Shown: positions 2,181-50,504 of the stretch, in pieces
How the letters are laid out: each line of letters opens with the position of its first letter
How positions within the stretch are numbered: position 1 is the first letter of the stretch
Assembly: GCF_037975245.1 (NCBI RefSeq)
Contig: NC_092572.1
Coordinates: 13,582,269 to 13,646,268 of the forward strand
Direction of reading: 5' to 3'
Origin: Apostichopus japonicus
Taxonomy: Eukaryota; Echinodermata; Holothuroidea; Aspidochirotida; Stichopodidae
DNA length: 64,000 nucleotides
Notes under the pieces: model-generated
Told to the model about the DNA's origin: nothing
Database searches by the model: none
The model's input: the letters and a program-made list of their open reading frames with translations, nothing else
Translations under genes and position numbers: made by a program

Positions 2181-6527
<4,347 letters not shown>

Positions 6528-6731
6528 TTAAGTTAGTACTAAGTCCTCAAATAAGTACCGAATCTTTGCTGTGACATTTCGTTTCGCCCACAGTACGATC
6601 TCCACTAGTAAATCATCTCTTTGTTCCAGATTGATGTCATTTAACTCGATGATTTCAATCGCAGGCAACTTCAGTAGAAGCAGAAAATCCAATGGGCAGT
6701 CTGCACCGAATGACATAGATGCAAATTTTAC
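6528..6731 (-). CDS. Exon 10, short LRR-like C-terminus
   Basis: Acceptor ctcatctatttcgcag, phase 0, 204 nt ending in a stop. It encodes a start of VKFASMSFGADCPLDF followed by LLLKLPAIEIIELNDINL, which resembles one leucine-rich repeat strand, then an acidic helix-like end (DDLLVEIVLWAKRN). Most NLRs carry many LRRs after the NACHT; here only this stub is visible before the stop. Further LRR exons 3' of 6528 were not seen. Confidence 0.75.
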   Translation of the reverse strand, partial: VKFASMSFGADCPLDFLLLLKLPAIEIIELNDINLEQRDDLLVEIVLWAKRNVTAKIRYLFEDLVLT

Positions 6732-9700
6732 CTGCGAAATAGATGAGAGAGACATAAGTTAAGCTGTCCTCCTTTCTTGTGTTTGTGAATCTCGAAAGTG
6801 ATTGCCATAAAATAATTGAAATAATTGTTTACCCACTGTGCTATCATCGTGGTATCGCTGAGTTCATTTTATTTTATGGAAATGGCCATTTGCAAAACAG
6901 TTTACAACGCATGTGACTTAGTAAGGTCAATTTAAGAGAACAAACATTGCTTGCTATGTCTTTGTTTATGAAATAAATTTCCACTTCGAATCTGTCTGAA
7001 ATACTGCATTAGTAACAATTCATATGAAGGAGTATCTATTGGTAAGTAGGAACTGTCGGCGTGTGGCAAAGAGTGCTAAATTGTACGGATGAATGATTAC
7101 TTGGTAAAACCCCGTTAGTTTGTACGAAGACTGTACTAAAATCTAAGAGTTATGTTCGAATTTCTAGTCGCATGATGTGTAATGTGTGCCATAAATATTT
7201 AGTAAACTGCCAGAAAATGCTTGTTATACTTGTTATGCTTGTTATACTGCAATCCTTTACTATGGTTGTGCTACCAACGTAGTTTCCTAATAAAACATTT
7301 GTTAGTTGATTTGCTTGATTATTATAATGGCAACAAATTAATGTATTTATTTTTTCTGAGAACCTTATCGGAAAGTTTTACAAACTTGCATTATTTTTCT
7401 TAAACTGATGATAAATTGTATAACGCTGATAAATCCCCCAGACTGATATTTTGTTTCATAATAATTGTGAAACATATATTTCGCTTGAGTGTTCAGAATC
7501 AATCGACTTATTACAGACGATTACAACAATTACCAATGTATTATACATTTTACTCCAAATAAGAAAACGCTATGGGCGTTTGGAGACTCGTTTGTGACTG
7601 GTAAAACACGGGTTAAGAAGATAGCAAAGCCGTTACTCACATTCGAGCGTAAACACTTTCCAATGAAGAGTTTGAATGAATTTTGATGATATCGCTCATC
7701 TAATCGCACAACTTTCATGTTTACAAGCGACGAGTACTTCTGCTGAAGAGTAAACGGTTTGACAGACTCTTCATTAGTTTCCATATCAAGAGTGTCCTCG
7801 TCGTTTTCCGATTCATAGATGCAATCTGCTAACGTATTCCAACATCTATTTGTTAATAGGTATTGCAATGTTTCGACTCTCATGTTCTTAGAAATGCCGC
7901 ATATGAACCGCAATATTCGGGAGATTCTTATATTTTCTTTTTTGTTGTTGGCTTTTAAAGCTCGTAAGATCATCTGTAAAGCGAATGAATCCTCGGAAAC
8001 AATATATTCCGCAATACAAAACTCTTGAATATAATCATGAGAGAACACATTGTAGTCAGGTTTTGACACGCCAACATTCTCCAACGATTTGATAGGTTTT
8101 AGATATCCAATTGTTTGAGCCATTTCTATTTCATGACCTTGAAGACGTGCTTCGTTAAGATCAAAGTTTTTAATCGATTTACTTATATCATAATTTAAAG
8201 ATGCTTTTGCGAGTTTCATACGTAACGGTGGTAGCGCACTTAAAATAGCTTCTTTACCGTGTTTCTCTTGGAACCTTCTGTCGAGGCAAGTTATGACTGA
8301 ACTAACTAATGAAGACATCTTGTTGATGTCCAACTCATTGATTGCCTTATTGATTTTGAGTAGCTTTGATACTATGATATGAATAAACATAACAATAAAC
8401 AACGGTGTGTCTTTAAAGTCTTTCACTAAATCATTTTGATTTAGAGTATAAATTGTTTTTTCTTTTAAGTCTGCATACATTTCATCATTTTCTTGCTGTT
8501 TTGGTTTACTTTTTGATACATCAATTAAACCATCGTTATGAAGTGTTCTAGTTACACATGGTTGGATGCGTTTGAAATAATCCAGTGTTTTACCGACGTA
8601 TGTTTCGATCTCTTCTGTATTGAATCCTAAAATCTCGACTTTAACGTATGGTTGTTCGTAAATGCAGTTTGACTGATCTATCTTTCGTGACGTTACCCAT
8701 AACCTCAGATGTGGGTAATGACTCAACATGGACTCGTTCAATAAACGTTTAATTGAAATATCACCAGGTGAGACAACATGTGTACTGCTAGTATTTTCTT
8801 GTTGGCTTATTTCGTGTAATCCATCCAGCAGTAGATGACATTTTCTTTTCAGTATAATATCACACAGTTGTTCACGTGAGATATTCATATCTCCTGGCAA
8901 AGTTTTATGCAATTGTTCTCCAATACCGGCAGTAATGTCGACTCCTGTCAGTGGCAGGATAAAAAGTATGTCTTTTTTCTTTTCCTTTAGTTTCCTCTTT
9001 GACCACTGACAGGCTATATACTGACGAAGTGATGTCTTTCCATGACCAATGTCTGCAATAAACAGCGCCCTCTTTATTTGTTTAGAGACCTTTGGATCCA
9101 GCAATGATTTGCTTGTCTTGGTTTCTGTGGGGCTATTGTCATAAGTAAGATTACATATAGTTTCAGTGTAGAGTTCATCGATGAGAACCTTCTCTCCCCA
9201 TGGCAGTGGTTTTATGTAGCTCATCGACTGATATCGGTCTTGAAGATGATTCATCAACTTGTCCATTTGTACTTAAAACAAGAAGAGTCACAAAAGCAAA
9301 ACAATTTCTTAAGTTTCATCAACATTCTTGGGCAAATAATAAGTGTTAACAGATTAACATTGGTTATTAAAAAAATTATAAGTTTGTTTATAAGTTTATT
9401 CGGTATTTAAAAGAGGATTTGAGTTAGTCATGTGACATCATTTACATATTACACCATTTTTGTAGCATTTTCTTAAAAGGAAGATTCCCTAGTGTTGCTT
9501 GTTTGTCTTTACATGTCAGGAGAAATAATAAAATTGTCCAGACTGAATAATACACTACATCATTACCTTCCGATAAAGGCGATGAATGTGTAAGAAGGGG
9601 CTCTGTTGCACTCTGTGGAAGATAATAACATGACAGTTGAATGTTAATGATTAAAATTTGACATTTGCGATTCGTGTACTTGAATAGTTAGCAATACAAA

Positions 9701-12700
9701 GTTCCATTCGACGAGACGCAATTACTATTTTCGGGGGAAATAATGACACCAAATATGTGATCAACACGTAGATATTCTAAAAGAGTTAAAAACAATCTCA
9801 ATTATGCATTTGCAAAAAGTTAAATCGGACATTATTTGTATTGCTAAATTTATCAACAATCATTATCGTAATTATATTTTGTGTAGTGTATCATTCAAAC
9901 ATTGCAATAAAGTAATATTCCTAAATCTCAAGGAACGCTTAAAGAAGATCTGAAATATCATAATATAAATAGTTAGTACTATCTATACTGAACATACCAA
10001 TTCGGTGTCACTCTCTTGATATTCCTTTTTGGAGTTGTCATTCCTTACTAAAACTGAAAAGTATTTACAAATATGTTTTTTAAAATTAAAAAAAAAACAT
10101 CAATTCATGAGATTCTATTTCAGAAGGTATTGATACCGTTGTGCGATATATGTCATCAGTAATGCGTTGGGTCTGCTGATATTTGAATTTACTCACTATT
10201 CTAGAATGTCAAATTAGCTTTATAATAATCGGGGTTCAAGTCTATGAAAATTAATTATAACCCAAACTTAAGATAATATGAAAACTATACGATATAACAT
10301 ATACACAATTGTTAAAATCATAGCAGAACATCCAAGGATATGATTTCATTGTCTGACATGCGAAAATGTTAACCTGCTGATTAAAGCTGATTAAAATAGA
10401 GAATTAACAGCTATGGAAAATCTCTATCTCAAGGCCCTTTATACATGTAGAGGTAGCAAAAAAATACAAAAAAAAGGATCAACCATCAATAAGTATCCGT
10501 ATGGGAGTACGCAGTCAGAAAATCAAGAGAAAGCAAGCGCACTGGGTAAGTGGCGAAGCTAGGAGCAGTTCTAATGGACACCCAAAATGAAGTATTTACA
10601 TACCCCAATCATTGTTTTGGATTAATAATAATTGATGGAACTATGATTTATTTTTTTATTTTTTATCTTGCTCATCTAGTTTGCCGGGTTTTACAATTTT
10701 CAGCTTTCTCTGTTGAGGACAGGAGTTTTTCAATTGTTATATTTGGAGTGGGTACAATTCATTTGAACGTTTCCTTGTCGTTATTTGTCATGCTGCTGTC
10801 TTGGGCCACTCTCCAGATTACTATCAGTATCGCACTTAAAACTTAAAACAATGAACATTTTTTTTTAATTTCATGGTTTTAAGGACGATGAAAGTATATC
10901 CAGTTGTGTACACTGTTATTTGATATGCGTATACAGGGTATCTAGATTTTCAAATAGCTATTGACTTCTGCTAGATATTTTGAAGCACATCAATAGATGT
11001 CAAAAATAGGAATTACTATTTTGTATTTATGATTTGCAAATAATACATCATTACCTTCCCATAATTCCGATGGATGTGCAAGAAGAGGTTTTGATGCATC
11101 CTGTGGACGCTAGTAATATTAAAATATTAAAATGTTAACGATTACAATTGACATGTCGCATAAAAAACGACGATTCGTGTACTTTAATATATAACAATAA
11201 CAGTCAGATTCGACGAGACGAAAATACCACCGGGACATATAAATGAAACAATTATGTAATCAACACGTTGCTACGCTGGAAGAGCCAAGAACTATCTCAA
11301 TATAAATTTGTAACAAGTTAAATCTGGCATCATTTGTATTGTTTAATTTATCCACAATTGTTCCGTTACTATGTTTGTGAATATTATATATAATTCAAAC
11401 ATTGTAAGAAAGCAATATTTGCAAAACTCAAGGAACCCTTATAGAAAATCTTAAATTAATATGAATATTCAGTACTATTTATACTAAACATACCAATTCG
11501 GTGGCACTCTCTTGGTGTTCCTTTGTGGAGTTGTCATTCCTTACTAAAACAGAAAAGTGTTTCCACATGTTGAAAGAAAACATCAATTCATGAAATATCC
11601 TTCAGAAGGTATTAATACTGTTATTGGATATGCGTATACAGGGTATCTAGATTTTCAAATAGCTATTGACTTCTGCTAGATATTTTGAAGCACATCAATA
11701 GATGTCAAAAATAGGAATTACTATTTCTTATTTATGATTTGCAAATAAGAAACTTCAGAAAGGAACTGAATATGGACATTGAGTATTAATGACAACATAT
11801 TTACATGTTGCATTAACAAACAAAAAAACATTACGTGGCATTTCCATCCCATAAAATGTGTCTCACCGTGGAATTAACATTAGCAATAACTAATATACGA
11901 GCTCAAAAGTCCTAAACGATTAAAAAAATTAATTGCATGTACATATATTGACGTCTTTCTTACCTTTTTTACATACAGTAAGACAAACGATAACAACCAT
12001 ACATGTCACTATCACTATCACGGCGGAGACTTCAACAATTATTACTAATCTAAAACCATCAAGAAAGACAGGTACTTCTTCATCCTTCGCTGTGGAGTCA
12101 GTTTGTGTGTCGGTGGTTTGAATGCAAGGCGCTACAAATAAATACGTAAAAAGGTATGAGTTTTCAGTGTCTCCTTGTTAATATCTCATTTTATATATAC
12201 ATTCATGCTTGGCCACTAAAGTCAAAATATTTGATAATGCATTTCAATTTTTTACTGAACCAACTGCATAATGGACAACACACTGTCTTAAAGCCCTGAT
12301 AGTTTTGGTGGCACTTGAAATACAAACTTAGATAATCTTTTTCCACCAATTTCAACCAGTTCTTTGTCTGTCTATTCTTTATAATTGTTGTATCGATCTC
12401 TTTTATGCAGTACTTTGATAGCATAACCCCTCTCTCCTTGCTATTTGTAAATTGTTATGCTTTAATGTGTATACAAAAATGTATATAAAAATGATTAATA
12501 TACTAACAAGTCTGCCATGGTATTATGCTTACACATAGTGAACATATTTACAATTATTTAATTATGTGAACAAAACTCTAACCTAAAAGACTAAAAGATG
12601 GTCTGGTTAAATTATGATATAAAGAAGATTACCTGAATTTAGATCCATTGAACTATCTTTGATGCCAAACATGTTACTTCCAACGACAGTGCATCTCACT

Positions 12701-15429
12701 GACAGTTTTGAACCACAAGTATCCATAGAAACCTCCATGTGAGCAATAGTGTCAAACGTATCCGTATCTGTATTATGCCTGACGGTAACATTGAAGAGGT
12801 CTTCGTTTCCAGTGATTAAACTGACGTTTACTTGAGGACGAGCACCAAGGACACTGCAAGAAACATTGTGGTTGGTCTTACCGTCAGAGCTGCAGTAGCA
12901 GGAATCACAGAGGGAAACCACCAGACATTCTTGTTGAGGATTAACTACGAATAAAAGTTATTAAATAAGACTTTAACGCTAGAAAAGATATCATGTCAGC
13001 ACGTTGATACAAACTTTAGAAACTGAAAGTAAAAAAAACATAGAATGCAATATGTTTTTATGTTGCATTTAGAAATGCCAGCAGGGGAGACCCGAAATCA
13101 TTGTTTTAAAACAAATCGGCTTATAATAAACTAACATGACGTTTGAAAAATAATTTAACTTTAATGTTCAAGAGAGTATTAAATTTCTATATTGTATTTT
13201 AAGCTTAGGTTCATTTGTTTGTGTTATGTTGACATTATATTTGTATTAGCTACATATTAAACTACAGTGAGTTGTATTGTTTAGAATAGATGAGAGTAGT
13301 TTTTTTATATTGTATAATACTTACTTGCAAGTTCTACACGAACAAAAGCTTCTTCATACGTTACATCTTTCACACTGACGATCTTGTACAAACCGCATTG
13401 ATCTTTTATTACGTTTTTGATCAACAAAGTTCCTGTTCCTGAAATATCATAAGTACCTTCCGCGGTTTTTTCTCCGTTTTCAAGTGTTACCAGAGGATTG
13501 TCAAACATAGTCTTCTCACTGTACCAGTATACGTTACTACCGTTTTCCACATGACAATCAATGGCGATATTCTGGCCGATTGTAGCATACTCAATCTCGT
13601 TGCAAAGGAGGTCGTTAGCTAACAAAAAAACATTAAGGCAATAGCTGTAACTATATTGTATACTTTATAATAATAAAATAATGTATACTTACATATACTT
13701 ACTTGTTTTTTGTGACATATTTTGCCTTACTCTAGATATCAAGCATGATGCTAACCAACTCGAAATCCTTTGTGATTCCTAAAGCCGGATCTCAAAAGAG
13801 ATACTTTGAAACAAACTTTATGTTAATGAAATGGAGGTAAACGACAAAGGCAAATGAATATATTATATATAATTGAAATCGCAAGAAGTTGGAAAATCAA
13901 GAACAGTGATAAAACTCATTACGATTTGTATTATATATTTATTCATTATATATACATTAAACGTATTGATCATGCGTTGTGTAAAACCACGGTGATATTG
14001 GATCCACAAAAGGACTTGGTATCGCTTTGTTTGGGACTGAGTTCGAATTTCGCTGGGAATGTGTCAACACCACTCCACTCCACTCCACGAAACTCCACTC
14101 CACGAAACTCCACTCCACGAAACTCCACTCCACGAAACTCCACATAACTGCACAAAATTTGAGTAACGCAATATATTTCATCACTGGGCCTCTGTTAATG
14201 TACTAAAATGGTATCTGGGAGTTACCCCTATAAGTATCCGTTTGCAGTTTCTCGCGCTCTCCTACTTCCCAGGATTGGATCCTTTTCTTGCACAATATAC
14301 TTGGGATATTTGTAAGCATATTATCTGGCTGAAAGACATTTTTTCAAATGTGTATCATGCAAACTTCTATGTGTGTATGTAGTAAACGAGCGGCACCAAT
14401 GTTTTTAGTTGTTTTTGACCTAGAAAGCGGACTAGGACGTGTTCCGTAACTGTTGTGTGTGATTTAAATTTTACTCAGGTGCATTTTTTCACTTAATAAT
14501 TGCTTTCCCCAAACTGCTTGAGGCCCCATCGGCCAGCCCCTACTACCGCCCCCCCCACCCCTATATGTGAAAAGTCTGATGCTGCCAATATCATTGATGA
14601 TCGACGTACACACAGAACGGTAACATTCTGAAAATTACCTGAGACAAAGTTGATATCATCTTAGTACAATAGTTTTCAAATTCTGAAAATTAACGCTATG
14701 ACGAGATGTACTAATCGTGGAAAAAGTAAAACTGCACAATTGCTACTATTTTTCGATTGTCTTTCCCGTTTTTCACACTAACTACTCTGAGAGAGCGTGC
14801 AAAGAGCGTGCAAGTTTCAGATTTTGACAGCGTTGCAATGTTTATAAGCCGTCAAACATGATGTCCCTTCTACGTTTCCGTTATTGTTCTATACTAAGGC
14901 ATAGTTTGCGTGTAATGATAAGCACTAGTCTTGTGCTATATTATTACAAGTGAAAAAGGATTCGACTACCATGGTCATTTATTCGTGGTTTGCTAACATA
15001 TCAATGTAAATGATAAAATGTTGATAAGAATGACACAGCTTATAGGGTTAAAGCAAAATCAAAACGTGTCTAGGATTGAACAAACAAATGTCGATATTAT
15101 CCTTTACATACTCTCATGTAGTTGTAACATGTTGATATTAGGCTACTTCTGATATTAAAACCTAACATTTTGATTTTAATATCAGTATGCTGATGTTACA
15201 TTGTAGCATGCTCATAGTTTTCCTAACATACTGCTATGTTCTCCTAACAAGCTGAAACAGATGGCGTTCCGTAGAATATGGATCGATTGACTTGATGCAT
15301 CAGTCAGGTGATAACTATTAAACATGTGTTTAAGACATCTGGTTAATTTGCTAATGAAATAATAAACTTACCTTTACCAAACGACATGAATACAGCTAGA
15401 GACAAAACAACTTCCACGATGTCCATCAT
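6528..15429 (-). CDS. Ig-Ig-TM-NACHT receptor (membrane-anchored NLR-like protein)
   Basis: Ten exons, in transcript order: 15429-15372, 13618-13325, 12944-12633, 12131-11964, 11543-11494, 11100-11055, 10047-9998, 9612-9567, 9271-7641, 6731-6528. Every junction is GT-AG and the phases agree throughout. The sum is 2859 nt, so 952 residues plus stop. Predicted order: signal peptide 1-20, Ig-like domain 20-117, second Ig-like domain 118-221, juxtamembrane stretch 222-249, one membrane span about 250-275, a duplicated short cytoplasmic cassette 278-341, NACHT STAND ATPase with winged-helix region about 345-885, short LRR-like end 886-952. STAND NTPases of this type act as nucleotide-switched oligomerising scaffolds in innate immunity. 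The Ig ectodomain and membrane span suggest a cell-surface sensor with a cytosolic NACHT. The exon model is read from sequence; ligand and signalling are unknown. The alternative is two genes, with a second start at the ATG at 9266. Against this, all eight upstream exons keep an open phase into the NACHT exon. Confidence 0.82.
7641..9271 (-). CDS. Exon 9, NACHT ATPase domain
   Basis: A 1631-nt exon coding for the whole NACHT module. It begins with the leader typical of NACHT proteins (DRYQSMSYIKPLPWGEK), then Walker A ADIGHGKTSL (about residues 414-423), Walker B HLLLDGLHE (about 487-495; the second acidic position is His) and sensor VTSR (about 534-537). The winged-helix signature FSHDYIQEFCIAEY is at about 751-764, followed by ISRILRFICGIS. 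These motifs place it in the NACHT clade of STAND NTPases, as in NLR proteins. The reading frame runs to a stop at 7530, but a perfect donor (AAT|GTGAGT) at 7641 matches the phase-0 acceptor of exon 10, so I end the exon there. If the intron is retained, the protein ends 36 codons later. Confidence 0.93.
9567..9612 (-). CDS. Exon 8, cytoplasmic cassette B (copy 2)
   Basis: A 46-nt micro-exon encoding SATEPLLTHSSPLSE plus one base, acceptor ttccacag, donor GTAATG. It joins the NACHT exon in phase 1 (G then TA makes a Val codon). Confidence 0.66.
9998..10047 (-). CDS. Exon 7, cytoplasmic cassette A (copy 2)
   Basis: A 50-nt micro-exon encoding VRNDNSKKEYQESDTEL. Splice sites are as in exon 5. 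His in exon 5 is Tyr here, giving an acidic KEYQESD context that could be a phosphotyrosine site; that is inference only. Confidence 0.68.
10914..11042. repeat. About 130-bp direct repeat, copy 1
   Basis: Near-identical to 11619-11748, including gcgtatacagggtatctaga and gaagcacatcaatagatgtc. Only a few differences exist, so this repeat is younger or more recently homogenised than the surrounding exon duplication. It lies in an intron of the Ig-NACHT gene. Confidence 0.9.
11055..11100 (-). CDS. Exon 6, cytoplasmic cassette B (copy 1)
   Basis: A 46-nt micro-exon, phase 0 to 1, encoding DASKPLLAHPSELWE plus one base. Acceptor gtccacag, donor GTAATG. Its duplicate is exon 8. The A-B pair adds about 32 residues per copy and leaves the reading phase unchanged (1 to 1), so it can be gained, lost or skipped without a frameshift. 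Confidence 0.66.
11494..11543 (-). CDS. Exon 5, cytoplasmic cassette A (copy 1)
   Basis: A 50-nt micro-exon, phase 1 to 0, encoding VRNDNSTKEHQESATEL between a ttttag acceptor and a GTATGT donor. It is about 88 percent identical at protein level to exon 7. The stretch is hydrophilic and rich in Ser, Thr and Glu, with no known domain. Preservation of both splice sites and the phase in two copies supports real use. Confidence 0.68.
11619..11748. repeat. About 130-bp direct repeat, copy 2
   Basis: Partner of 10914-11042, same orientation, about 705 bp away. The two copies bracket cassette exons 5 and 6, so recombination between them would delete or amplify that pair without changing phase. Confidence 0.9.
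11964..12131 (-). CDS. Exon 4, transmembrane segment of the Ig-NACHT receptor
   Basis: Phase 1-1 exon of 168 nt. It encodes an acidic, Thr-rich stalk (QTTDTQTDSTAKDEE), then about 25 mainly aliphatic residues from LVIIVEV to VCLTV, closed by CKK as a stop-transfer signal. One Glu lies within the N-terminal part of the span. The position after the Ig domains and before the NACHT predicts a type I protein with a cytosolic NACHT. Confidence 0.8.
12633..12944 (-). CDS. Exon 3, second Ig-like domain of the Ig-NACHT receptor
   Basis: Phase 1-1 exon of 312 nt. It opens with a cysteine-rich stretch (ECLVVSLCDSCYC), then a C2-like Ig with B-strand NVSCSV and F-strand LSVRCTVVG. Sequons such as NVT and NVS are present. 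The exon ends DLNSG at a GTAATC donor. A remnant similar around the F-strand (VKCAVKG) lies on the minus strand at 32817-33011. Confidence 0.78.
13325..13618 (-). CDS. Exon 2, first Ig-like domain of the Ig-NACHT receptor
   Basis: Phase 1-1 exon of 294 nt with a pyrimidine-rich acceptor (ttttttgttag) and a GTAAGT donor. The B-strand cysteine is in IAIDCHV and the C-strand tryptophan in VYWYS. The E-to-F turn is GTLLIKNVIKDQCGLYKI. The usual DxGxYxC motif is altered: the F-strand cysteine position carries Ile, and a Cys sits four residues earlier (DQC). The fold is therefore probably V-like with a shifted or missing disulfide. Confidence 0.82.
14070..14144. repeat. 15-bp minisatellite
   Basis: About four to five copies of ctccactccacgaaa in intron 1 of the Ig-NACHT gene. 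Both strands stay open across it because the unit is divisible by three, which creates false repeated peptides (WSFVE on the minus strand). Not a gene. Confidence 0.93.
14145..15371 (-). other. Intron 1 of the Ig-NACHT gene, distal part
   Basis: No exon recognised. Contains a C-rich stretch near 14552-14565 and several short repeats of ctaacat/catgctgat type around 15120-15250. Confidence 0.5.
15372..15429 (-). CDS. Exon 1, signal peptide of the Ig-NACHT receptor
   Basis: Starts at tandem ATG codons and encodes MMDIVEVVLSLAVFMSFGK plus one base, then a GTAAG donor (phase 1). Together with the first bases of the next exon (ending ...GKA-ND) it forms a typical hydrophobic signal peptide. The first ATG was chosen because the hydrophobic core follows at the usual distance. 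The 5' UTR and promoter are not resolved. Confidence 0.82.
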
Positions 15430-19393: not shown

Positions 19394-22300
19394 GTATGTA
19401 TTCAGTTGCTATATAGTTTATCTCTGTTTATCTGAATATGTGTAATTAATTATATTTTAGCCATCTGTTTCACATACTATGGATATTTTGTTTGTTTCAT
19501 AGGGTATGTCTCAACAACTATTTTTGCACAATGTTTCAAGGGCGAGAACGTTTCCGATGATTTGACTTCATGCAATGTTGAGATCGGTGATGATTTGTGT
19601 TTGATATGTCCTGTCAATATATCAAACACGTCAGCTATCATGTGGACGAGAAACCATGACCTAATTTACGCCGGTGTAAATAAACTTCAAAAAGACGCAA
19701 CGATATTTCAAAACAATTGTCATCCCGTGCTGTCCTCGATTCAGTTAAAGAATATTTCTTTTGCTAAATACAACGATGTGTATGAATGTCTCAGAAGAAA
19801 TCAAGACTTAGTACTAATTACGTACAAGGTATCAGTAATAGGTAAGATTAAATGTTTTCATCGCATTTATTTGTATCTTCAATTCCAGTGTTTTGTAGAA
19901 CTATGGCATGTCATATGTTAAAAGTATTGTTTGAGTAAATTTCAATCAGTAGACATTTCTCGTAAATTGAGCAATCAACCTAAAACCTTCTACTGTCTTG
20001 TATGCAGTTATCGCTTAGTTATTGCAGTTCATTAGGAGCTTCAAAATGGTAGATTTTAATGTAATTTGCAATGGTAAAAGAACATGTTCCGTGGCTGTTT
20101 CTGAAATAACTATGTACTAGAATATGTAAATGTGAAAAAATATAGTACATCGTTTGAGTTTGAACACTGCTACAAAACCTTGCTTTATGCTATTTATGCA
20201 AGTTAACTACCCTTGGCTAATACTCTTTTACGCTCTGCTTAGCCAACAACCAAATAAAAGAATACCAAACTAAGAAATGAGAAACATTTACTGTAGCGTT
20301 TTTACATCGTTTTCCAGTGTAAACAGAGTGACGATTGTTCGTGACTAAAAATGTAACGTCAAAGAACATGTTCCGTAGCTGTTTATAAAATAACTTGTAC
20401 TAGAATAAGTAAATGTGAAATAAATAGTACATAGTTTGAGTTTGAACACTGTTACAAAACCTTGCTTTATGATATTTCTGCAAGTTTACTACCCTGGGCT
20501 TATACTTTTTGTACGCTCTGCTTAGCCAACAACCAAATAAAAGAGTACCAAACTTAGAAATGAGAAAAAAATATACTGTAGCGTTTTTCATCAATTTCCA
20601 GTGTAAACAGAGTGACGACTGTCCTTGACTAAAAACGTTACGTCAAAGAACATGTTCCGTATAGCTGTTTCTAAAATAACTATGTACTAGAATATGTAAA
20701 TGTGAAATAAATAGTACATAGTTTGAGTTTGAACACTGTTACAAAACCTTGCTTTATGATATTTCTGCAAGTTAACTACGCTGGGCTAATAATCTTTTAA
20801 CGCTCTGCTTAGCCAACGACCAAATGAAAGGGTACCAAACTTACAAATTAGAAATATATACTGTAGCGTTTTTACATCAATATCCAGTGTAAACAGAGTC
20901 ACGTTATACAAAACTCATATGTGGATATGAACATATCGGTACATGTCTACATGTGTTATCATGTTTCAGGAATTAATCTGCCGCTAACAGTAATCGGGGT
21001 TTTTTCTCTTAATATCGAATACGCAAGTAGCAGGGGTTTTTTTTATGATACGAGCACTTTAGCAGTTATAGTTTGACTATTTCGCTTATGTTTTCAGTAG
21101 TCTTAATATGTGCAAATTATCACATAGTCAATGAATCGATTGTTTTTAAAAATAAACTTTAGTCAAAGTAAATAATATTAAAGAGTGAAATAACGCATAC
21201 TACATTTAATCATTTCATACAACAAAATCACATAAAATGACCCCGTAAGTACATAATATTACCACAAAAAAAGTAAACGCAAACTTAAGGTGGCCGTCAT
21301 TATCGTCACAGTCAATGTCATCATCATGAAAAGTCGATAGCATGCCGCTGATGTTTAATCAATAAGCTTACATTCAATGAATAGTTATACTTAATTTTAT
21401 TGAAATTTTAAAGATATATTTTTGGGTTTGTTTTGTAAATGCCACTTTCCGCTGCACATAAAAAAGTAATTAATCAAAAAGTACCCGAAAATGAAAAATC
21501 AACCGTTGCTTTACCTGTTTTTAAGTAGGAAAGAAATTTGAATACTAGACTTACACCTTTGGAGATGACGAAAGCGAAGTCTTTTTTTTAAACTCTGTCT
21601 AGTAAGTAAATTGGTCAATACATTTTGGGGAATGAATTATACTTCATTTGCCCATATTGTTTTGCTGAAACTATACACGCAGATATCAATTAACGTTCCA
21701 TTGCAAATACCCTTGCAGATGCAAATGAATTTTGCAAACAATATTGAGCTTAAAGAAGCTCATAATACATCAACTTTTAGTGGATCGTGTCGGTGGAAAC
21801 TGGTATGCATACAACAATTCAGAATGTTATAAAGACTAAACCAATGATTTATTATAATATCGATGTCCTTCTACAATCAATATATCTTGTAAATGTATAA
21901 ACTCTTGTACCGCAACTTGCCCTATAGATACGTTTAATATGTTTAAGGTTTTGTAGTTAAAATTCCAAACTAACGTAAGTTTAACTAAATGTCGTTTCAA
22001 CATATCTCGTACTCAAAGTTTAGTTCATTCACATTCGCTTAAGAAGTATAATCCTACGTGCTAGTTGGAAAGACCTCGAATTATCCCATTTTTTTCTCGA
22101 GTTTAACATTTTAATTGGGAGGGATACAGAATACCATTTGCTATGTTTTCTGTTGAGTGCGTCTGCTTTTCACAACCGTTTGCAGTTTATTTTCACATTT
22201 GATATGCTTTGATACAGTTCCTTCAGTATACTATGGATACATAACTAATAGAACCCTGCGTGACATGTTGATGTCTCATTACTATTCAATGATAAAGGTA

Positions 22301-25300
22301 TCACATGGGGTATTGCAGACAGGTATGTTCCTTTTCTTAACTAGATTTCACCCTTACGGCATCTTAGCTAGGTATTAAGACAGGCTTTGTAAGATTTGTT
22401 AAACTAGTTTTTTTTATTTATGTATATATATCAATGATGCCTAACATTACGTCTGGGGTTATCGATCAATCAGTGAAAACAAGCTTCCGTGTAAGTTTTA
22501 TCTCTGAATTTATTGATCTGATTCTACCGAAGGTATAGCAAATGACATTGTGTTGGAATACATCAATAGATCGCCGACCACAATTCCAAACAATTCTTGG
22601 CAAAATATCAACGCTTTTAAAAAATGTTAGCCGGGAAGCTAATTCAGAGTTTTATCCTGCATGTAAGCACTTTATGTCATGGTTCTCTGAGATATGTTTT
22701 ACTTATTGAAACGTCCAGAGTTTCTCAACAAACTGTCAACTAATGTTAGATCTCCTTTCTTGTTCATTTTGTAGGAAGAACACGTTCTAGATGTAAACCA
22801 TCAGACTACTACTCGACCTTGGAAATATCGAAATTAAGCTGTGGTGAAATATGTTTCAATAATAGGTGATGGATATTAAAGAACATTTAGAAATAAAAAC
22901 CAAATGCACAGTCGTGTTATTAGCTCAAATTGCAGTTTGCAAAAATAATTAGCCATCATGAAAGTAATTTAAGCTTTTTTCGTGAACATGAAAGTTTTCA
23001 ATAACACATATGTATTTCATTTGCCCCAAATTCTGTGGCCCTTTTTGTATTACCTGTTGCCAATACAAGATTGGTAAATGTAGATATTTTTATTTGCCGG
23101 CATCCCTTTACATTACTTCAGTTAATGTTAACATGTAATTTTTGTAATTTACAGTCTTAAAAACAGTAAAATCTAGTCGTTAAAAGAACGATACAGATTG
23201 ATTACAATGTAGATAAACCATTCTAGCAAAATATTGCTTTACTTCTTATAAATACATATTGTACAAAACCGTGGTTCATGATTACCTTATCTTTCAATTT
23301 CCACCTACCTGCAAACTATAAATTTAATAAAGTTTCTAATGTTACTAACCAAATAATATTTAAAGGTCAAACCACACTGTATACAGTATTATGTTCCTTA
23401 TGTAAGTCATTCATTCAGTTATATATAACCATTTGGTATATTTAATACTATCATTCATTATTATCAATTATTCATTACCTTCCATTCATCCCATCATATA
23501 TTGTTACAACGTATAATAATCATAATAATAATAATAATAATCAGCAGTTATTTGTACGACTCTTAAGAGACCACAAATGTGGGAGAAAACAGCAAGGGCT
23601 TATGGATTACAATATATACGTCGGGTGGCTTTCAATTCAATATTTTAACTCAAATTTGGAATCTGTGCAATTTAGAAAGTCATTTCAAATGCGAAAACCG
23701 TACATTGCTCTTGGTTTAAAAACCCACCTTACTATGACCCGGCCGGGTATCGAACCCGGAACCTCCCGACTGATTAGCCCTATTGCCGCCTTTATCCACT
23801 CAGCCATGGCATCGGTATCAAAATGAAAATGAAACATACGATACAACATTTTGTAATTTACCATAAATTTGAGCTATATATTCTTGATTACTGTTTTACC
23901 ATTATTTTGAGATAGTAATGTCATATTAAAGGTCAAACCACACTCAATACAGTTGTTCTCTTCCTCATGTAGATCATTGACGAGTCATATATAACCATTG
24001 TATCCATGTTATTCCATTATTCATTAGTTTCCATTGATCCATTCATCTATTGTAAGAGCTTGTAAGAAATGAAACAGACGTTGCAACAGTTTGCAAGTTA
24101 CCCTAAATTTGAGCTATTCTTGATTAAGATTTTATCGTTAATCGTGAACAACTTTCCATTTAAACACAATGTTTGCAACCTTCTGCCATCAACTATATTA
24201 TGTCTTACGATGCGAAACATGCAAAGGGAACAAGGGGTTGTGATTGCAGGTTTTGACAGATAATGTGAACACTTGAAGTATTATAAGGTACTTCACTTCA
24301 TCACAAAGTTGTTTATAAACTCAGCCATACTAGTTCTGTTTTATCTCCGTTATATTACAAGTGAGCGTGTGAAATATATCGTTCATAAAACGTAAAATTC
24401 GTATGAATATAGTTTAAGGGTTGCACTTTGTCCTTTAGTAGGAACTGTGTTTGATACTGAAGTACATGATAGTTTCAGTTTATAGCTGGAAATATGATTA
24501 AGCACGCCGTTTATCCATAGAAAGCATCGACAGAAATATTTATTTACAAAAATCCTTCATATTCAGGTGTGATTTAATGATTTCCAGCCAGCTGGAGGTG
24601 CAATTGGAGGTGACGGGATGAGAAGTGACGTCACGTTTAGCCTCTCAGTCACAAACTAAAGTTACAATGTTTACCTCTATGTATATATGATGTAGCCATG
24701 GATTCACACCAAAATATAAAATACGATGTATTCAAATACTCGTTTCGATTTATTCGTGATTAAATGGCCTGCTGTCATCATCCTAAGGCAGTGGATGAAT
24801 TATTCCTCCGTTTAATATATATACTATATAATTTGTAAATTGTTTATGTCATCTGATGAGAGAAAACAGTGTGTCTTTGGGTTATAGAATCACAATCATC
24901 ACCACAGACAGTATGGCCACTAGGTAACACGACAAGATTTAATTTAACTAAAATACAGTCCGTTTCGGTTGCTGAACCTGTTTTTAATTTATCAGACATG
25001 AAAGAAATTTCAGTGCAGTTGCTTAAAGAAATAGACATGGATTTTGACTTGGTTAATAAATGAAAATATACAAAGAAAGGAGCTATTCAATGAAACTGTT
25101 GACCATAGAGTGGTGTCTACATACAGCTTCAACCAGGATGGAAATTCGAAAACAATTGCATGTCAAGTTACCTGGTTCCCATATCAAACCCGCCAGTGTG
25201 ACTTACAACTACCAAAAAGCAACTTCGGGTAAGGAAATTTTCCCTTCAACACGTAAATCCTTCTACGAAACAAAAGGCACACTGAATATTTTTGTTCAGC

Positions 25301-28198
25301 AAATGGGTAAGTTGATTTTCATTGACTTCAAACTGTACGTCAAAGAACATGTTCAGTAGTTTATTGTGAAATATAGTACTATGATACATGAATTGCAAGC
25401 ATTATAAAGTAAATCTTTTAAGTTTGAATACTGTGATAAAACCTTGCTTAATTTTATTTCTGAAAAATAACTACTTTAAGCTGATTATCGTTGTACGCTC
25501 GTCTCAACCAACAACCAAATGAAAGAGGAACAACTAATAAATAAAAATATACAATGGATGATTACATCAGTTTTCCAATGTGAACAGAGTGATGTTGTAT
25601 AAAGGTTGTGTTTTGGTTATTGACAAACTGGTGCCTTGGTAACGCCTACATGTGTTATCCTGTTTCAGGAAATAATCTGCAGCAAATAATAATTGGAGTT
25701 TTTGTCCTTATATCGGGAATGCTAGTAGCATGTTTCTTTATCTACAAGCACTGTGAGTATACAATTTTATTAATACTGTTTCATTACCTATTTCTTATCT
25801 TTGATTCAAAGAAAGAATGAGAAGACCAAATTCTGTCATCAGAATGCTGCTGTTGTTTAAATTTGCATGTTCATTTCGTTTACTGTTTGGAAATACGCAA
25901 ACACTATCTATTTCAATTATACAGACAATCACACATGTTATGTGCATGTCAACTTAAATAAAGTTAAACTCTCTGCCACCTTTCATCATACATTTCAAAA
26001 ACATAACTAGACGTGAGAGACGTTTCGAAGGGTAGGTAAGACATATAACAATAGTCCCTTCAGCTGGTGTATAATAATCGCCTTAGTTATAAATGTGTCT
26101 TACAGCTAAAAGTGTCAAGTTTACTATTTCGCGTGTTTTAATTAGTTTAGATATTTGTAAGTTATTAATGAGGGTTCATAACAACAATCATTGAATCGAT
26201 TATTCTTTAGAAATAAAATCTGGTTAAATTAAATGATATGAAAGGGTGATATAACGCATACTACACTTAATTCTTTCACCCAACAGGGAAATCAGATTAA
26301 ATGATCCCGTAGCCACACACGGTGGTAAGTGTTAACAATTACAAAAAAAAGTAAACGCAAAGTGACGGTGGCCATTACTATCGACACCGTTAACGTCATC
26401 TGCATGAAAAGTCGATTGTATGCCGCTGATGTTTAATCAATAAGCTTGCATTCAACGATTAGTTATATTTAATTGCAATGACATTTAAAAAGATATTTAC
26501 TGATTTGTTTTGTAAATACCCCTTTAAGCTGTACAGCAGGGTAATTAGTTATCAGTTAACAGAAGTCAGAGTAGAAATACTGGAGAACCAAACAATTTGT
26601 GATGATAATGACGATAACATTTTAACAATTAAGCAAACATACAAAATCGCTAGAAACGCTTCTTGTATGATATTCTATTTTAAATATTACTGTATGACAT
26701 GATCGTAACTGTGACGCTTGTAATTTTGAATATGATAACGATATAGAGATCATACCGCTCAGTTGCAGAGTTGGATGTTCAAACCGAACTTGTTCAAGTA
26801 CCCAAGGATGAAAACAAACATGGATCAATCATCGCATTACACACCTGCTTAAAAGTAGGAAAGAAATTTGAATACTGGACTGGCACATTTGGAGATGACG
26901 AAAGCGAAGTCTTCGTTAAAACTCTCTCTAGTAAGTAACTTGGTCAATACATTTTGGGAAATAAATCATACTGCATTTGCACATATATGTTGACGAAACT
27001 ATACACATAAATGCCAATTAACGTTCCCTTACAGATGGAAGCACCCTTGCAGATGCAAACGAATTCCGAAAACTAGCATTGAGCTTAAAGAAGTTGAGAA
27101 GACATCACCTTTTTGTGGATCGTCTCTTAGTGTCCGTGGAAAATGGTACGCATCAAAAATACAGACTGTTGTAAAGACTAAACCGATGATTCCTTTCATG
27201 ATCAATGTCCCTCTACAATCAGTATATCTTGTGAAATGTATAAACTCCTTTTATTTGTCTGATGTTTTGGTAGTAAAATTTCCAAATTAACGTAAATTAT
27301 ACGAAATGTCGTTTTAGCACATCTCGTGCTACGTTCGAAGTTTAGTTCATGCACATTCGCTTCAGAAGTATAATCCTAAGTGTTATTTGGAAAGACCTCG
27401 AATTGTATGTAATGTCTAATTGGTACACCAAGTGGGAGAGATATAGGATATTATATATTTGTTATGTTTCCTGATGAGTGCGTCTGCTTTTCACAACCGT
27501 TTGCGGTTTTTTGTACATATTTGACAATAATGCTTCCATACAGTTCCTTCGGTATACTATGAATACATATCTAATGGAACTCTGCGTGATATGTTGATGT
27601 CTCAATACCAAGAAGCCCGGAAGTCACATGTGTTGACGAATAATAAAAAGCAACTTCCAGAAAGTATGAAAAGTCAAGTTGAGGTATTGCTGCATTTATC
27701 ATGCGAGGTTGCTTCTGCCATGGTTTTCCTATCTTCTCAGAAGGTAATATGAAATAATTTCTCATATTTCGTTTTTTTTAACCGTCTTTGTAAATAACTG
27801 ACATTGTGGAATTAATTCTATTATTCGAATACCAGTGCATTTTTCTTACATTGAATCTTATTACAGAGTATTATCATATTAATATGATATTTCTTGTTCA
27901 GTTTATCATTCTGCCTTGTCCCGTTTAGTTTTGTCATCCTATTCTGTCAACGAGGAAAGTCCTCCTAACAGAGACTGGTCATTGCAAACTTTATGATGTT
28001 TGCCCCGAGAGCATGGCTGTATCCATCGTCAATGAGAAATTGGATAAGGTAAATTGGCCGTGTAATACAAACACAAACCCACCCAAATACCCATACATGT
28101 AAATGTGTCGCAAGTGGTATGACAGATATATTAAACAAATGAAATCAACACACCCAAAAGGACCAAACCTGTCTTCTGGTGTGTTGGTATTTTTAATT

Positions 28199-28229
<31 letters not shown>

Positions 28230-29452
28230 TGATACTACTATGTAGTTATTGAGATGTATATAGACCCAATCTTTCAAACAAAACAAAAAACAAGTAAAAC
28301 CTAATACTGACAATGCAAACTGATATAATGTTTAATAGGTAAGTTTTTACGCCAAAGCAGGTTGACGTTTTCTTTTTGCTTTTGGTTCTATGCTTATTTA
28401 TTGACAAATATGTATGAGCAATTGAATTACGATAAGACTCTAAATGTGTCCTATTCACTTTACAGGAATACCCACCAATCATGTGGATGTCACCGAGGCT
28501 GTATTTTTGAAACAATACTCAGTTGACAGCGATATCTGGAACTACGGCACCTTCTTGTGGGAAATATTTTCTTTGGGTAATAATTCAATTGCTTCAAATT
28601 TTGCTCTACCAGTTAATACTTATCAATACGCTTTAAAAGTTTTTTTTTTTTTTATGAATAACGAAACGCATTTTACCTCAATAAAAAATATCACATTTAA
28701 ACTTGAAGGAGAAGTACCTTACGCTGGACTCAGTAAACTTCAGTTAGAAGAAAAAATAAGACAGACCATTGTGCTTGCTCAACCAATTTGCTGTCCAGGT
28801 GCTTTGTAAGTTTGCTAACTTTAATCTTTCCTTTCACGATTATGTATACTTTCCGTTACTAATCCTAGTGAAACTGTTCAAGTTTGCATAACACCGTTCA
28901 ATATTCAATGATAAATGTTTGTCAGAGAGTGTTGCAGTAAGGTATATACTTACTCCACAATTTTACCGATACAGCCTTTTAGCTACAAAAAATAACAGGC
29001 TGTGGGAGATGTGTTTTAACATGTTTCATTACTTATGTATATATCAAAAAGATGCATAATAATACTTCTGAAGTTAGTGGCCAATGAGTGAAGTACAAAC
29101 GTCCATGTATGTTTCATCTCTGAATGCATTGATCTGATTCTTCCGAAGGTATAGCATAATGACACTGTGTTGGAATACATCAATAGATCACCGACCACCA
29201 TTCCAAACAATTTTTGGGAAAATATCAACGCTTTTAGAAAATGTTAGCCAGGTAAGTAAATTCAGAATTGCATCCTGCATGTAATCACTTCATGTCATGA
29301 TTTTCTGAGAAATGCTCGACTTATTGAAACATCCAGAGTTTCTCAACAAACTGTCAACTAATGTTAGATCTCCTTTCTTTTTCATTATGCAGGAAGATCA
29401 AGTTCTAAGATGTAAAGCATCGGACTACTACTCGACCTTGGAAATATCGTAG
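19342..29452 (+). CDS. Ig-domain single-span receptor with tyrosine pseudokinase domain
   Basis: Proposed exons: 19342-19393 (signal peptide), 19503-19841 (Ig1), about 24911-25308 (Ig2, frame-disrupted), 25669-25752 (membrane span), 26763-26930, 27035-27145, 27544-27743, 27929-28048, 28466-28576, 28709-28805, 29149-29251 and 29393-29452 (kinase-like domain and tail). Phases agree at all junctions except that exon 28466-28576 is one base short. The kinase-like part matches receptor tyrosine kinases from the N-lobe to the CW...RP motif at the C-terminal end. However, the glycine loop reads LKVGKKFEYWTG, HRDLAARN is replaced by HPILSTRK, and DFG is replaced by DVC. Lys of the VAIK motif (VFVKTL) and the alphaC Glu are kept. 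It should therefore bind but not phosphorylate, or serve as a scaffold. A dead duplicate of the TM-kinase exons sits between Ig1 and Ig2. With one frameshift in the kinase region and one in Ig2, the locus may be a pseudogene, or these may be assembly errors. Confidence 0.68.
19503..19841 (+). CDS. Exon 2, Ig-like domain 1 of the pseudokinase receptor
   Basis: Phase 1-1 exon of 339 nt with a ttgtttcatag acceptor and a GTAAG donor. B-strand cysteine in DLCLICPVN, C-strand tryptophan in AIMWTRN, F-strand motif YNDVYECLRR. This canonical Cys-Trp-Cys spacing gives a V/I-set-like Ig. Several sequons (NVS, NIS, NTS) are present. No stop or frameshift. Confidence 0.82.
20056..20905. repeat. Three tandem copies of a 285-bp intronic repeat
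   Basis: Copies begin near 20076, 20361 and 20645, each with aaagaacatgttccgt, then tagaatangtaaatgtgaaa, gtttgagtttgaacactg, and cgctctgcttagccaac. A fourth, more diverged copy lies at about 25341-25600 just before the TM exon of unit B. So the repeat marks the intron before the TM exon in both units. Confidence 0.88.
20967..22850 (+). pseudogene. Unit A: decayed TM and kinase-like exons
   Basis: Degenerate copies, in order, of unit-B exons. TM exon near 20967 (shared aatctgc, ggagttttt-like core, but the frame is broken after the first half). Glycine-loop exon near 21526 (Trp codon changed to TAG in FEY-W). AlphaC exon near 21713, disrupted. Hinge exon near 22217 (VPSVYYGYITNRTLRDML still readable). 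C-terminal exon near 22534, one base short after TATAGC. Tail exon near 22776 with a deletion. Copies of unit-B exons 27929-28048, 28466-28576 and 28709-28805 are absent. It lies inside the long intron of the receptor gene and cannot encode a kinase domain. Confidence 0.8.
23364..24420. repeat. Unit A 3' flank repeats
   Basis: Contains two copies (near 23364 and 23931) of a segment starting aaaggtcaaaccacac and continuing tcttcctcatgtagatcatt and atataaccattgtatcc. Two more copies sit at about 30083 and 30362 in the matching 3' flank of unit B. This supports tandem duplication of the whole unit, including downstream DNA. Confidence 0.75.
23514..23815 (-). mobile_element. tRNA-derived SINE
   Basis: Read on the minus strand, the head (about 23815-23735) has tRNA-like A and B boxes: ggctgagtggataaaggcgg and ggttccgggttcgatacccg. 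A body of about 200 bp follows and ends in an (ATT)n tail at 23514-23542. Head, body and simple-repeat tail are the SINE layout. It lies in an intron of the pseudokinase receptor and is absent from the matching region of unit B, so it inserted after duplication. It is not a working tRNA gene, because the acceptor stem does not pair. Confidence 0.72.
24911..25308 (+). pseudogene. Exon 3, Ig-like domain 2 (frame-disrupted)
   Basis: Starts after a plausible phase-1 acceptor (accacagacag) and ends at a phase-1 GTAAG donor. The first frame gives VWPLGNTTRFNLTKIQSVSV followed by AEPVFNLSDM up to DFDL. The Ig C-strand to F-strand then continues in another frame as LTWLINENIQRKELFNETVD and SKTIACQVTW. 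The end (KGTLNIFVQQMG) lies in a third frame that matches the donor phase. The Trp (TWL) and the F-strand Cys (IACQV) are visible; the B-strand Cys is not. Two frame changes suggest a degraded exon or sequence errors. A partial copy of its first half is in unit C (32376-32588). Confidence 0.5.
25669..25752 (+). CDS. Exon 4, transmembrane segment of the pseudokinase receptor
   Basis: Phase 1-1 exon of 84 nt, acceptor tgtttcag, donor GTGAGT. It encodes GNNLQQ, then the span IIIGVFVLISGMLVACFFIY, then KH. It is a clean single membrane helix followed by basic residues and predicts a type I receptor. Confidence 0.78.
26763..26930 (+). CDS. Exon 5, juxtamembrane and N-lobe start
   Basis: Phase 1-1, 168 nt. 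Encodes a juxtamembrane stretch (AELDVQTELVQVPKDENKHG), then beta1 to beta3 of a kinase-like fold: LKVGKKFEYWTGTFG and EVFVKTLS. The GxGxxG loop is reduced to one glycine at that position; Lys of the VAIK motif is kept in FVKTL. The unit-A copy carries a stop here. The acceptor (ataccgctcag) has a weak pyrimidine tract, so the 5' edge is less certain. Confidence 0.68.
27035..27145 (+). CDS. Exon 6, alphaC helix region
   Basis: Phase 1-1, 111 nt, acceptor gttcccttacag, donor GTACGC. Encodes NGSTLADANEFRKLALSLKK with the alphaC Glu (NEF), then LRRHHLFVDRLLVSVENG, matching the alphaC to beta4-beta5 region of receptor tyrosine kinases. Confidence 0.8.
27544..27743 (+). CDS. Exon 7, hinge to alphaE
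   Basis: Phase 1 to 0, 200 nt, acceptor cttccatacag, donor GTAATA. VPSVYYEYISNGTLRDML is the beta5-hinge-alphaD segment. An insert rich in Lys, Gln and Asn follows, then LLHLSCEVASAMVFLSSQK, the alphaE helix. This pattern is specific to tyrosine-kinase-like domains. Confidence 0.85.
27929..28048 (+). CDS. Exon 8, degenerate catalytic loop and DFG region
   Basis: Phase 0-0, 120 nt. Encodes CHPILSTRKVLLTETGHCKL followed by YDVCPES. Aligned to the family pattern HRDLAARNVLL...KxxDFG, the catalytic Asp is Ile, the Mg-binding Asn is Lys, and DFG is DVC. The Asp of DFG is kept. This is the main evidence for a pseudokinase. Confidence 0.85.
28204..28229. repeat. (TA)n microsatellite
   Basis: Short TA array in the intron between exons 8 and 9 of the pseudokinase receptor. 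Confidence 0.9.
28466..28576 (+). pseudogene. Exon 9, activation segment and alphaF, one base short
   Basis: Starts in phase 0 with EYPPIMWMSP and ends in phase 1 with YSVDSDIWNYGTFLWEIFSL. These two parts are in different frames. The exon is 111 nt where 112 are required, so one base is missing around 28494 in tcaccgaggct, where the conserved APE-type motif (here MSPE) should be. Otherwise the exon is well preserved. It is either a real inactivating deletion or an assembly error. Confidence 0.75.
28709..28805 (+). CDS. Exon 10, C-lobe alphaG region
   Basis: Phase 1 to 2, 97 nt. GEVPYAGLSKLQLEEKIRQT and LAQPICCPGAL match the family pattern GG.PY.GL....IR.G.R...P..CP..LY. Donor GTAAGT. The open frame through the preceding intron is accidental; the GGTAATA donor and the ttgaag acceptor restore the family spacing. 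Confidence 0.8.
29149..29251 (+). CDS. Exon 11, C-lobe end (CW...RP motif)
   Basis: Phase 2 to 0, 103 nt. YSIMTLCWNTSIDHRPPFQT and IFGKISTLLENVSQ carry the kinase subdomain XI signature CW......RP.F..I...L. The unit-A copy at about 22534 has lost one base and is out of frame. Confidence 0.85.
29393..29452 (+). CDS. Exon 12, C-terminal tail
   Basis: Phase 0, acceptor ttttcattatgcag, 20 codons ending in TAG: EDQVLRCKASDYYSTLEIS. The paired tyrosines (DYYSTL) could be a docking or phosphorylation site. The unit-A copy at about 22776 has a frameshift. Confidence 0.75.
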   Translation, partial: EDQVLRCKASDYYSTLEIS

Positions 29453-47761: not shown

Positions 47762-49240
<1,479 letters not shown>

Positions 49241-49241
49241 T

Positions 49242-50408
49242 GTGTATTCTATATCATTATATCACCATTTACGAAGAATTTGTTTCACTTTTAAGCGTTT
49301 GACATTCGGCAACGACGCCTATAGGCGTTCGTTCGCCTCACGTTACACTGCGATGGATTCCGCGAAACGCCACAAGATGGGTGAGTTAAAGGAGTGTAGT
49401 GTTAGAGTGTCGGACAGAGGATACGAAGTCAATGATTTGGTGAAGGCAATCATTGGGGATATCGGAAATGACAAGGTATTAAGTTGTGTGAAATCTGGGG
49501 GATATTGGACAATTACTCTACGAAACCGGGAGGATGCAGATTTACTCATAGAAACAGGACTAATAATCAATGGTGGGACTTGCAACGTGTATGGAGTGTC
49601 GAAATCACTTTTAACTGTTAGTGTATTTGGCGTCCCCTCGTTTATTGACGACGAGGAACTCTCCGAGAAACTGCTCGAATTTGGTTGCAAACTCAAAGGA
49701 CAGTGGCACCACAACACATACAAGAAATTCCCCAACATCGAGAATGGAATTCGCTACATACGGTTAGAACTACCCGCAAAATCCAAGGGCCTTCCATACG
49801 CAATAACGGTGAACGATATACATATGATGATAAAGCATAATGGACAAACAAGGGTATGCAATCTCTCTCTAGAAACTGACCACATCATACGGAACTGTCC
49901 CAAATACATATGCCGAGAATGTAACGTACAGGGACATCGGGAAGCTAACTGCCCTAAAGTTAGATGCTATAACTGTAACGATTTTGGACAAAAAAGTTTT
50001 AATTGTCCACAACCCGAAGCTGACGATGACGAAGACACCGACTACAACGATCACCATGGTAACCAACTCATAACAACAAGCAAAGACACGATTACACAGG
50101 CCAGCGTCCAACACGAGGATCAACCAAGAGATGAAGTCATGGACTTATCCCAGACAAAAGATACGGAGCATAACGAAATAACAAAGGAGCGAGACCATAA
50201 CACAACGACACGTAACGAAGGTAACAATGGTAAACAACGAACAACGTCACAAATCCCACGGGCTGCAGAAAGTAAGGCAACTGGAGAAACTAAACCGGCC
50301 AAAGATAAAGCTGCACGAGGTAACAACAAAACCACCAATAATCTCGATCGCAACAACAGAGCCACTGAAATTCCCCAACAGATTAAGCGAACATTGTCCC
50401 TTGGTTAG
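49242..50408 (+). CDS. LINE ORF1, gag-like RNA-binding protein
   Basis: 388 codons without interruption. The second Met (49353, MDSAKRHKMGEL) is the more likely start, since the first 37 residues are unlike ORF1 proteins. An RRM-like region contains LTVSVFGVPSFIDDEELSEK. Three zinc knuckles follow. The first has lost a Cys (CNLS instead of CxxC), the second is intact (CRECNVQGHREANC), and the third has His replaced by Gln (CYNCNDFGQKSFNC). The C-terminal third is low-complexity, rich in Thr, Asn, Glu and Lys. The role in the family is to bind element RNA for retrotransposition. Open but with decayed knuckles, so probably not functional. Confidence 0.85.
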   Translation: MYSISLYHHLRRICFTFKRLTFGNDAYRRSFASRYTAMDSAKRHKMGELKECSVRVSDRGYEVNDLVKAIIGDIGNDKVLSCVKSGGYWTITLRNREDADLLIETGLIINGGTCNVYGVSKSLLTVSVFGVPSFIDDEELSEKLLEFGCKLKGQWHHNTYKKFPNIENGIRYIRLELPAKSKGLPYAITVNDIHMMIKHNGQTRVCNLSLETDHIIRNCPKYICRECNVQGHREANCPKVRCYNCNDFGQKSFNCPQPEADDDEDTDYNDHHGNQLITTSKDTITQASVQHEDQPRDEVMDLSQTKDTEHNEITKERDHNTTTRNEGNNGKQRTTSQIPRAAESKATGETKPAKDKAARGNNKTTNNLDRNNRATEIPQQIKRTLSLG

Positions 50409-50504
50409 GGGGAATTCAGAACTGTTCGACTGAAGAAAAAGACATTCCATCCAAATCTCAGCAAAGGGAGGAATTCCAACCCCAGGATCACTGAAGCGCA
50501 ATAA

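Follow-up and report, generated by a model that had tools for sequence, protein, structure and literature searches.

An Ig-Ig-transmembrane-NACHT gene of the sea cucumber Apostichopus japonicus and its reading as a putative membrane immune receptor

Introduction

Does a single gene place a NACHT ATPase module behind two immunoglobulin (Ig) domains and a membrane span, and what would such a protein do? The question is raised by a locus on the minus strand of a 64,000-nucleotide (nt) stretch of the genome of Apostichopus japonicus, called the window here, in which all coordinates are counted. By every sequence test made it is a gene: the architecture given by the first-pass annotation is right, its 3' end is wrong, and the family, of which it was not aware, is already described. 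The gene structure, the domain order and the homologues of nearly full length are directly observed; the function is treated further below.

Gene structure

Ten exons had been proposed on the minus strand from 15429 onwards. Spliced together they give 2868 nt, coding for 955 residues and a stop, with GT-AG at all internal junctions and phases that agree throughout, and the proposed order of a signal-peptide-like exon, two Ig exons, a transmembrane (TM) exon, micro-exons and a NACHT exon was recovered. The 3' end did not stand, as exon 10 stops at 6559 and is followed by two further exons. The corrected gene has 12 exons and 3009 nt including the stop, and codes for 1002 amino acids (aa). Exons 2, 3 and 4 are each of phase 1-1. 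The homologues, numbered P0001 to P0011, come from three protein searches; P0001-P0008 are gene models.

Exon 1, 15372..15429, minus strand: start codon and signal-peptide-like hydrophobic stretch (mean hydropathy 2.65, residues 4-14)
Exon 2, 13325..13618, minus strand: Ig domain 1, V-set-like, phase 1-1 (weak Pfam match; fold of the homologue P0003)
Exon 3, 12633..12944, minus strand: Ig domain 2, C2-like, phase 1-1
Exon 4, 11964..12131, minus strand: stalk, transmembrane helix and KK stop-transfer, phase 1-1
Exon 5, 11494..11543, minus strand: cassette copy A, first half; repeats the exon 7 region (family D3, 88 %)
Exon 6, 11055..11109, minus strand: cassette copy A, second half; repeats the exon 8 region (family D5, 79 %)
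Exon 7, 9998..10047, minus strand: cassette copy B, first half
Exon 8, 9567..9612, minus strand: cassette copy B, second half
Exon 9, 7641..9271, minus strand: NACHT, then a helical/winged-helix region
Exon 10, 6559..6731, minus strand: beta-alpha C-terminal region, end corrected
Exon 11, 5758..5831, minus strand: past the earlier end; from tblastn of P0001, GT-AG and phase
Exon 12, 4832..4929, minus strand: stop codon, past the earlier end; from AG acceptor, phase and collinear alignment
Intron 9 read-through frame, 7530..7640, minus strand: possible alternative end, matching the P0008 C-terminus

Given the rate of stop codons in the introns, 0.067 per codon, chance does not account for the open frame (probability about 1e-30).

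Homologues in Apostichopus japonicus

The first two protein searches scored only the approximately 8000 candidates richest in shared words, so that distant relatives may be missed. Nine proteins (P0001-P0009), all from A. japonicus, were returned by the first search; a profile search added the partial P0010, and a search starting from P0009 added P0011, which carries no species label. Ten of these 11 proteins are assigned to A. japonicus, and none among the 11 is labelled as belonging to another species, a result that distant relatives may have escaped. The combination of Ig, TM and NACHT is present in eight of the nine homologues of the first search (P0001-P0008, with P0007 beginning inside Ig1), and P0009 begins inside Ig2 and continues through the TM to the NACHT. 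The eight come under two naming styles, BSL78 locus names and 'uncharacterized protein' isoforms, and are homologous to the window protein over nearly its whole length, being collinear over Ig, TM and NACHT with 60.7-82.4 % identity over 822-1014 columns. A protein-database check for other Ig-TM-NACHT architectures, which had been suggested together with the claim of a single gene, thus found eight, all in A. japonicus. Because these proteins run unbroken from the Ig domains through the TM to the NACHT, a single gene is much more probable than a mis-join of two.

Identity to the window protein is highest for P0002 (82 % over 822 columns) and P0001 (77 % over 956), followed by P0003-P0007 (65-66 %) and P0008 (61 %), the ectodomain of which has diverged; P0010 reaches 75 % over 460 columns, P0011 37 % over 549 and P0009 34 % over 775. 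The NACHT part taken separately is 79-91 % identical to P0001-P0008. A longest contig of 34,621,101 is listed for each of P0002-P0005, P0008 and P0009, which suggests that these six lie on one chromosome.

The homologues also locate the 3' end. In a tblastn search of the window, residues 940-960 of P0001 match at 5833-5771 (71 % over 21 aa, E 2.9e-5), and the C-termini of P0003-P0007 match within 4936-4835, with E values of 0.02-0.2 that are weak when taken singly. The donor at 6558 and the splice sites of exons 11 and 12 hold the frame through to a TAA, and the 12-exon protein aligns up to the last residue of P0004. Judged by these signals, the earlier end at 6528 is a read-through of intron 10. 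The peptide read through intron 9 agrees with the C-terminus of P0008 in 22 of 25 residues; alternative C-termini may therefore be real.

A direct duplication some 1.5 kb long (families D3, D5 and D6; 79-88 % identity) gave rise to the two cassettes. Both are kept in P0002, as in the window gene, and one is found in the other eight of the nine homologues (P0001 and P0003-P0009). With both cassettes P0002, itself a gene model, has exact counterparts of the junctions 11964/11543 and 9567/9271. The frame survives the loss of exons 5 and 6, 6 and 7, 7 and 8 or of all four, and is broken by the loss of any single cassette exon. Beside the cassette exons lies an intronic direct repeat of 132 nt (10912-11043 and 11617-11748) with 98 % identity, as against 79-88 % for the cassettes, and it is probably younger than their duplication.

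Domains, motifs and structure models

Two Ig-type domains precede the TM, which begins near residue 250. Ig1 gives a weak Pfam match, and its Ig fold is seen in the model of P0003; Ig2 reaches the Pfam cut-off as C2-set_2 for exon 3 alone and falls under it in the whole protein. C-terminal to the TM, NACHT is above the Pfam cut-off and NLRC4_HD2 matches weakly, under it. Neither a CARD or death-fold family (Pfam at E up to 1) nor leucine-rich repeats (LRRs; Pfam) were found in the window protein, and a sequence search of the PDB with the NACHT open reading frame (ORF) returned nothing at E up to 0.1. Within exon 9 we take ADIGHGKT to be the Walker A, LLLDGLHE the Walker B and FSHDYIQEF a winged-helix-domain (WHD)-like motif. 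The exon appears to be present once in the window: its tblastn search there returns itself only, the next match having an E of 1.3.

Foldseek with the P0003 model gave NLRP7 as the top match (E 4.7e-10) with a global TM score of only 0.17, and after it two-Ig ectodomains such as those of RAGE, PD-L1 and nectin. The later list of fold matches was taken up by residues 24-232, the Ig part, and is uninformative on the NACHT or the tail. In residues 838-951 of the same model strands and helices alternate, with a block pLDDT of 54-68 up to residue 860 and of 70-85 thereafter; these are perhaps degenerate LRRs.

Relation to described receptors

The first-pass annotation was not aware of any family described with this domain order, but the Ig-Ig-TM-NACHT order is already in print. 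AjNLRC4 of A. japonicus (MN607598) was published with an Ig-like domain, an Ig domain, a TM and a NACHT in this order, without a CARD, and located on the coelomocyte membrane (PMC8699970). It drives phagocytosis; its Ig domains bind microbes including bacteria and were held responsible for its dimerisation, and its NACHT part binds beta-actin (PMC8699970). It also leads to caspase-dependent lytic death, linked to caspase-1 and MLKL, and an LxxD caspase motif was reported in its Ig region (PMC11932488). AjNLRC4 was not recognisable among the matches of the three protein searches. By architecture the window gene is a member of a group of such receptors with shorter ectodomains.

'Unique genes' of A. 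japonicus that combine Ig, TM and NACHT have been reported as well (PMC13133943). The same paper describes AjNLR-new (PIK48001.1, 1197 aa), which shares the combination of the three domains with the window gene; on the basis of TMHMM and cell-binding tests it was given an inverted topology that puts the NACHT outside (PMC13133943). Its length sets it apart from all 11 proteins found here. Its Ig lies between two TMs, whereas the window gene reads as one that starts with a signal peptide. Going by the published description, the N-terminal TM of AjNLR-new may be a signal peptide; the authors also report cell-binding tests for the topology they give (PMC13133943). The order in the window is a reason to recheck this inverted topology and also the second TM published for AjNLRC4 (residues 776-795, after the NACHT; PMC8699970), which may correspond to a weaker hydrophobic stretch of the window protein (633-651).

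In another holothurian, Chiridota heheva, an Ig V-set domain is mentioned within a class of six NLRs with other domains (PMC8913654). TM-bearing NLRs are mentioned for sponges (PMC12909245). Passages of PMC11797021 and PMC8455134 contributed nothing on Ig-NACHT. Like vertebrate NLRs (NLRC4, NLRP), the window protein has a NACHT with helical and winged-helix parts; in contrast to them its NACHT stands behind Ig domains and a TM, and CARD, PYD and LRR are absent from its Pfam matches. It is not a canonical NLR in the sense of a cytosolic protein with NACHT, LRR and an N-terminal death-fold domain. Among animals, membrane NLR-like receptors which face the cell exterior are uncommon; sea cucumbers hold several of them.

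Proposed function and its alternatives

We consider it fairly probable that the gene codes for a type I membrane immune receptor which clusters on its ligand and whose NACHT modules dock effectors for engulfment or lytic death. In the predicted topology the V-like and C2-like Ig domains would lie outside the cell, a single helix would cross the membrane, the short cassette, present twice, would connect it with the NACHT ATPase module in the cytosol, and the beta-alpha tail would close the protein. Microbial or self ligands would cluster the Ig ectodomains on coelomocytes and thereby draw the NACHT modules together. The gathered modules could then dock effectors, namely the actin machinery and perhaps a caspase, with engulfment or lytic death as the outcome. 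That this paralogue acts like AjNLRC4, has the predicted topology and makes use of nucleotide-driven NACHT assembly is what we infer from the comparison.

Several observations weigh against this reading. The ectodomain of AjNLRC4 as published (residues 1-482, followed by the TM at 483-503) is about twice as long as that of the window protein, and the LxxD of its Ig region is without a counterpart in the window ectodomain, the first LxxD occurring at residue 386. The stretch 633-651, after the NACHT, has a mean hydropathy of 1.88, which makes a two-TM topology possible; we read it as a probable buried helix of the NACHT module. The structure models are weak, with a mean pLDDT of 53.5 for P0003 and 48.3 for the window exon 9, and Ig2 lacks a confident fold. 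Finally, the Walker B of the window protein reads DGLHE, with H at a position where nine of 11 homologues have D, P0009 has K and P0011 has N; ATP handling may therefore be altered.

The Walker B changes in the window protein, P0009 and P0011 also favour the alternative which survives best, that of a protein for adhesion, self-recognition or co-reception, the NACHT of which would be a scaffold only, for example on actin, without nucleotide-driven assembly. The AjNLRC4 results, with beta-actin bound by the NACHT part and dimerisation assigned to the Ig domains (PMC8699970), fit it too. However, Walker A, a sensor-1-like TSR and the WHD-like motif are retained in the window protein, and the NACHT part is as well conserved as stated above, so that we regard a mere scaffold as unlikely. 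A decaying paralogue is much less probable still, since the Walker B change would have to be set against 3009 nt over 12 exons without a stop or frameshift and with canonical internal junctions throughout. Least probable is a mistaken joining of a neighbouring Ig-TM gene to a gene for a cytosolic NACHT protein whose start would be the ATG 5 nt into exon 9 (9266), which was set aside because the homologues, gene models that could share an error, are collinear across TM, cassette and NACHT, and the cassette exons carry matching phases.

Possible exchange of modules

Beyond the receptor reading, the point of greatest interest is that ectodomain modules may be exchanged between NACHT modules, with P0008 as the candidate. 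P0008 is 81 % identical to P0009 in part of Ig2, 69 % in the TM exon and 46 % in the NACHT; against the window protein the corresponding values are 36, 22 and 79 %. In steps of 30 residues the affinity of P0008 changes within residues 271-300, around the phase-1 boundary between TM and cassette. Tree distances are reversed in the same way: P0008 and P0009 are about 0.35 apart in the ectodomain and 1.67 in the NACHT, P0008 and the window protein about 1.9 and 0.32. Such a reversal is not easily obtained from domain rate differences on one tree. A topology test of the ectodomain rejects P0008 with the window clade (approximately unbiased test, p-AU 4e-43), the group having been chosen after the identities had been seen. 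In the NACHT tree a weakly supported branch (54/17) already separates P0008, P0009 and P0011 from the rest, and grouping P0008 with the other two is not rejected; for this reason it is the reversed distances, rather than the rejection of a topology, that carry the case for the swap. P0008 has the look of a module swap, possibly a new one, in which an ectodomain and TM from one branch are joined to a NACHT from another.

It is also quite conceivable, though less likely than not, that P0008 is a gene-model artefact, exons of paralogues lying side by side having been joined in the annotation; P0008 and P0009 probably lie on one chromosome. This would concern the swap and not the receptor reading. 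Against it stands the position of the switch, close to a phase-1 exon boundary, which is where genuine exon shuffling would be looked for. We propose only tentatively that a chromosomal cluster in sea cucumbers might form a combinatorial repertoire of surface STAND (signal transduction ATPases with numerous domains) proteins, with whole ectodomain-TM modules swapped onto different NACHT modules at phase-1 boundaries and with alternative C-termini and duplicated cytoplasmic cassettes as further variation. The phase 1-1 Ig and TM exons, the paralogues with shorter ectodomains and the possible swap make a mix-and-match of Ig and NACHT testable now.

Other features of the window

Two stretches on the plus strand, 27531-27752 and 28444-28809, are tyrosine-kinase-like (PK_Tyr_Ser-Thr, E 3e-4, under the cut-off, and 1.8e-8, above it). 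Upstream on the plus strand lie a hydrophobic ORF at 25593-25820 and, at 19436-19921, an Ig-like ORF in which a C..W..Y.C pattern is visible by eye; the Pfam Ig matches of the latter are weak (E 0.16 and 0.18). These ORFs and the kinase-like stretches may together represent a divergent neighbouring Ig-TM-kinase receptor. An ORF at 22157-22378, plus strand, resembles by eye the kinase stretch at 27531 (TVPSVYYGYITNRTLRDMLMS), matches nothing in Pfam at E up to 1 and is possibly a duplicated kinase exon.

A unit of 178 nt is present in three tandem copies at 20113-20860, with a spacing of 283-287 nt. In a 4-kb search the DNA of exon 2 matches 31 nt in the repeats at 20.1-21.5 kb at 81 % (E 0.001). 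Degenerate copies of Ig1 in this region were considered and rejected, the top protein match, at 21.2 bits, being too little above the 20.8 of the best of 30 single-base shuffles. Further downstream, at 49188-53244 on the plus strand, lies a probable broken retrotransposon of the long interspersed nuclear element (LINE) type, with a CCHC zinc knuckle in its first ORF (E 0.035, under the cut-off), none in the second and RVT_1 in the third (8.6e-13).

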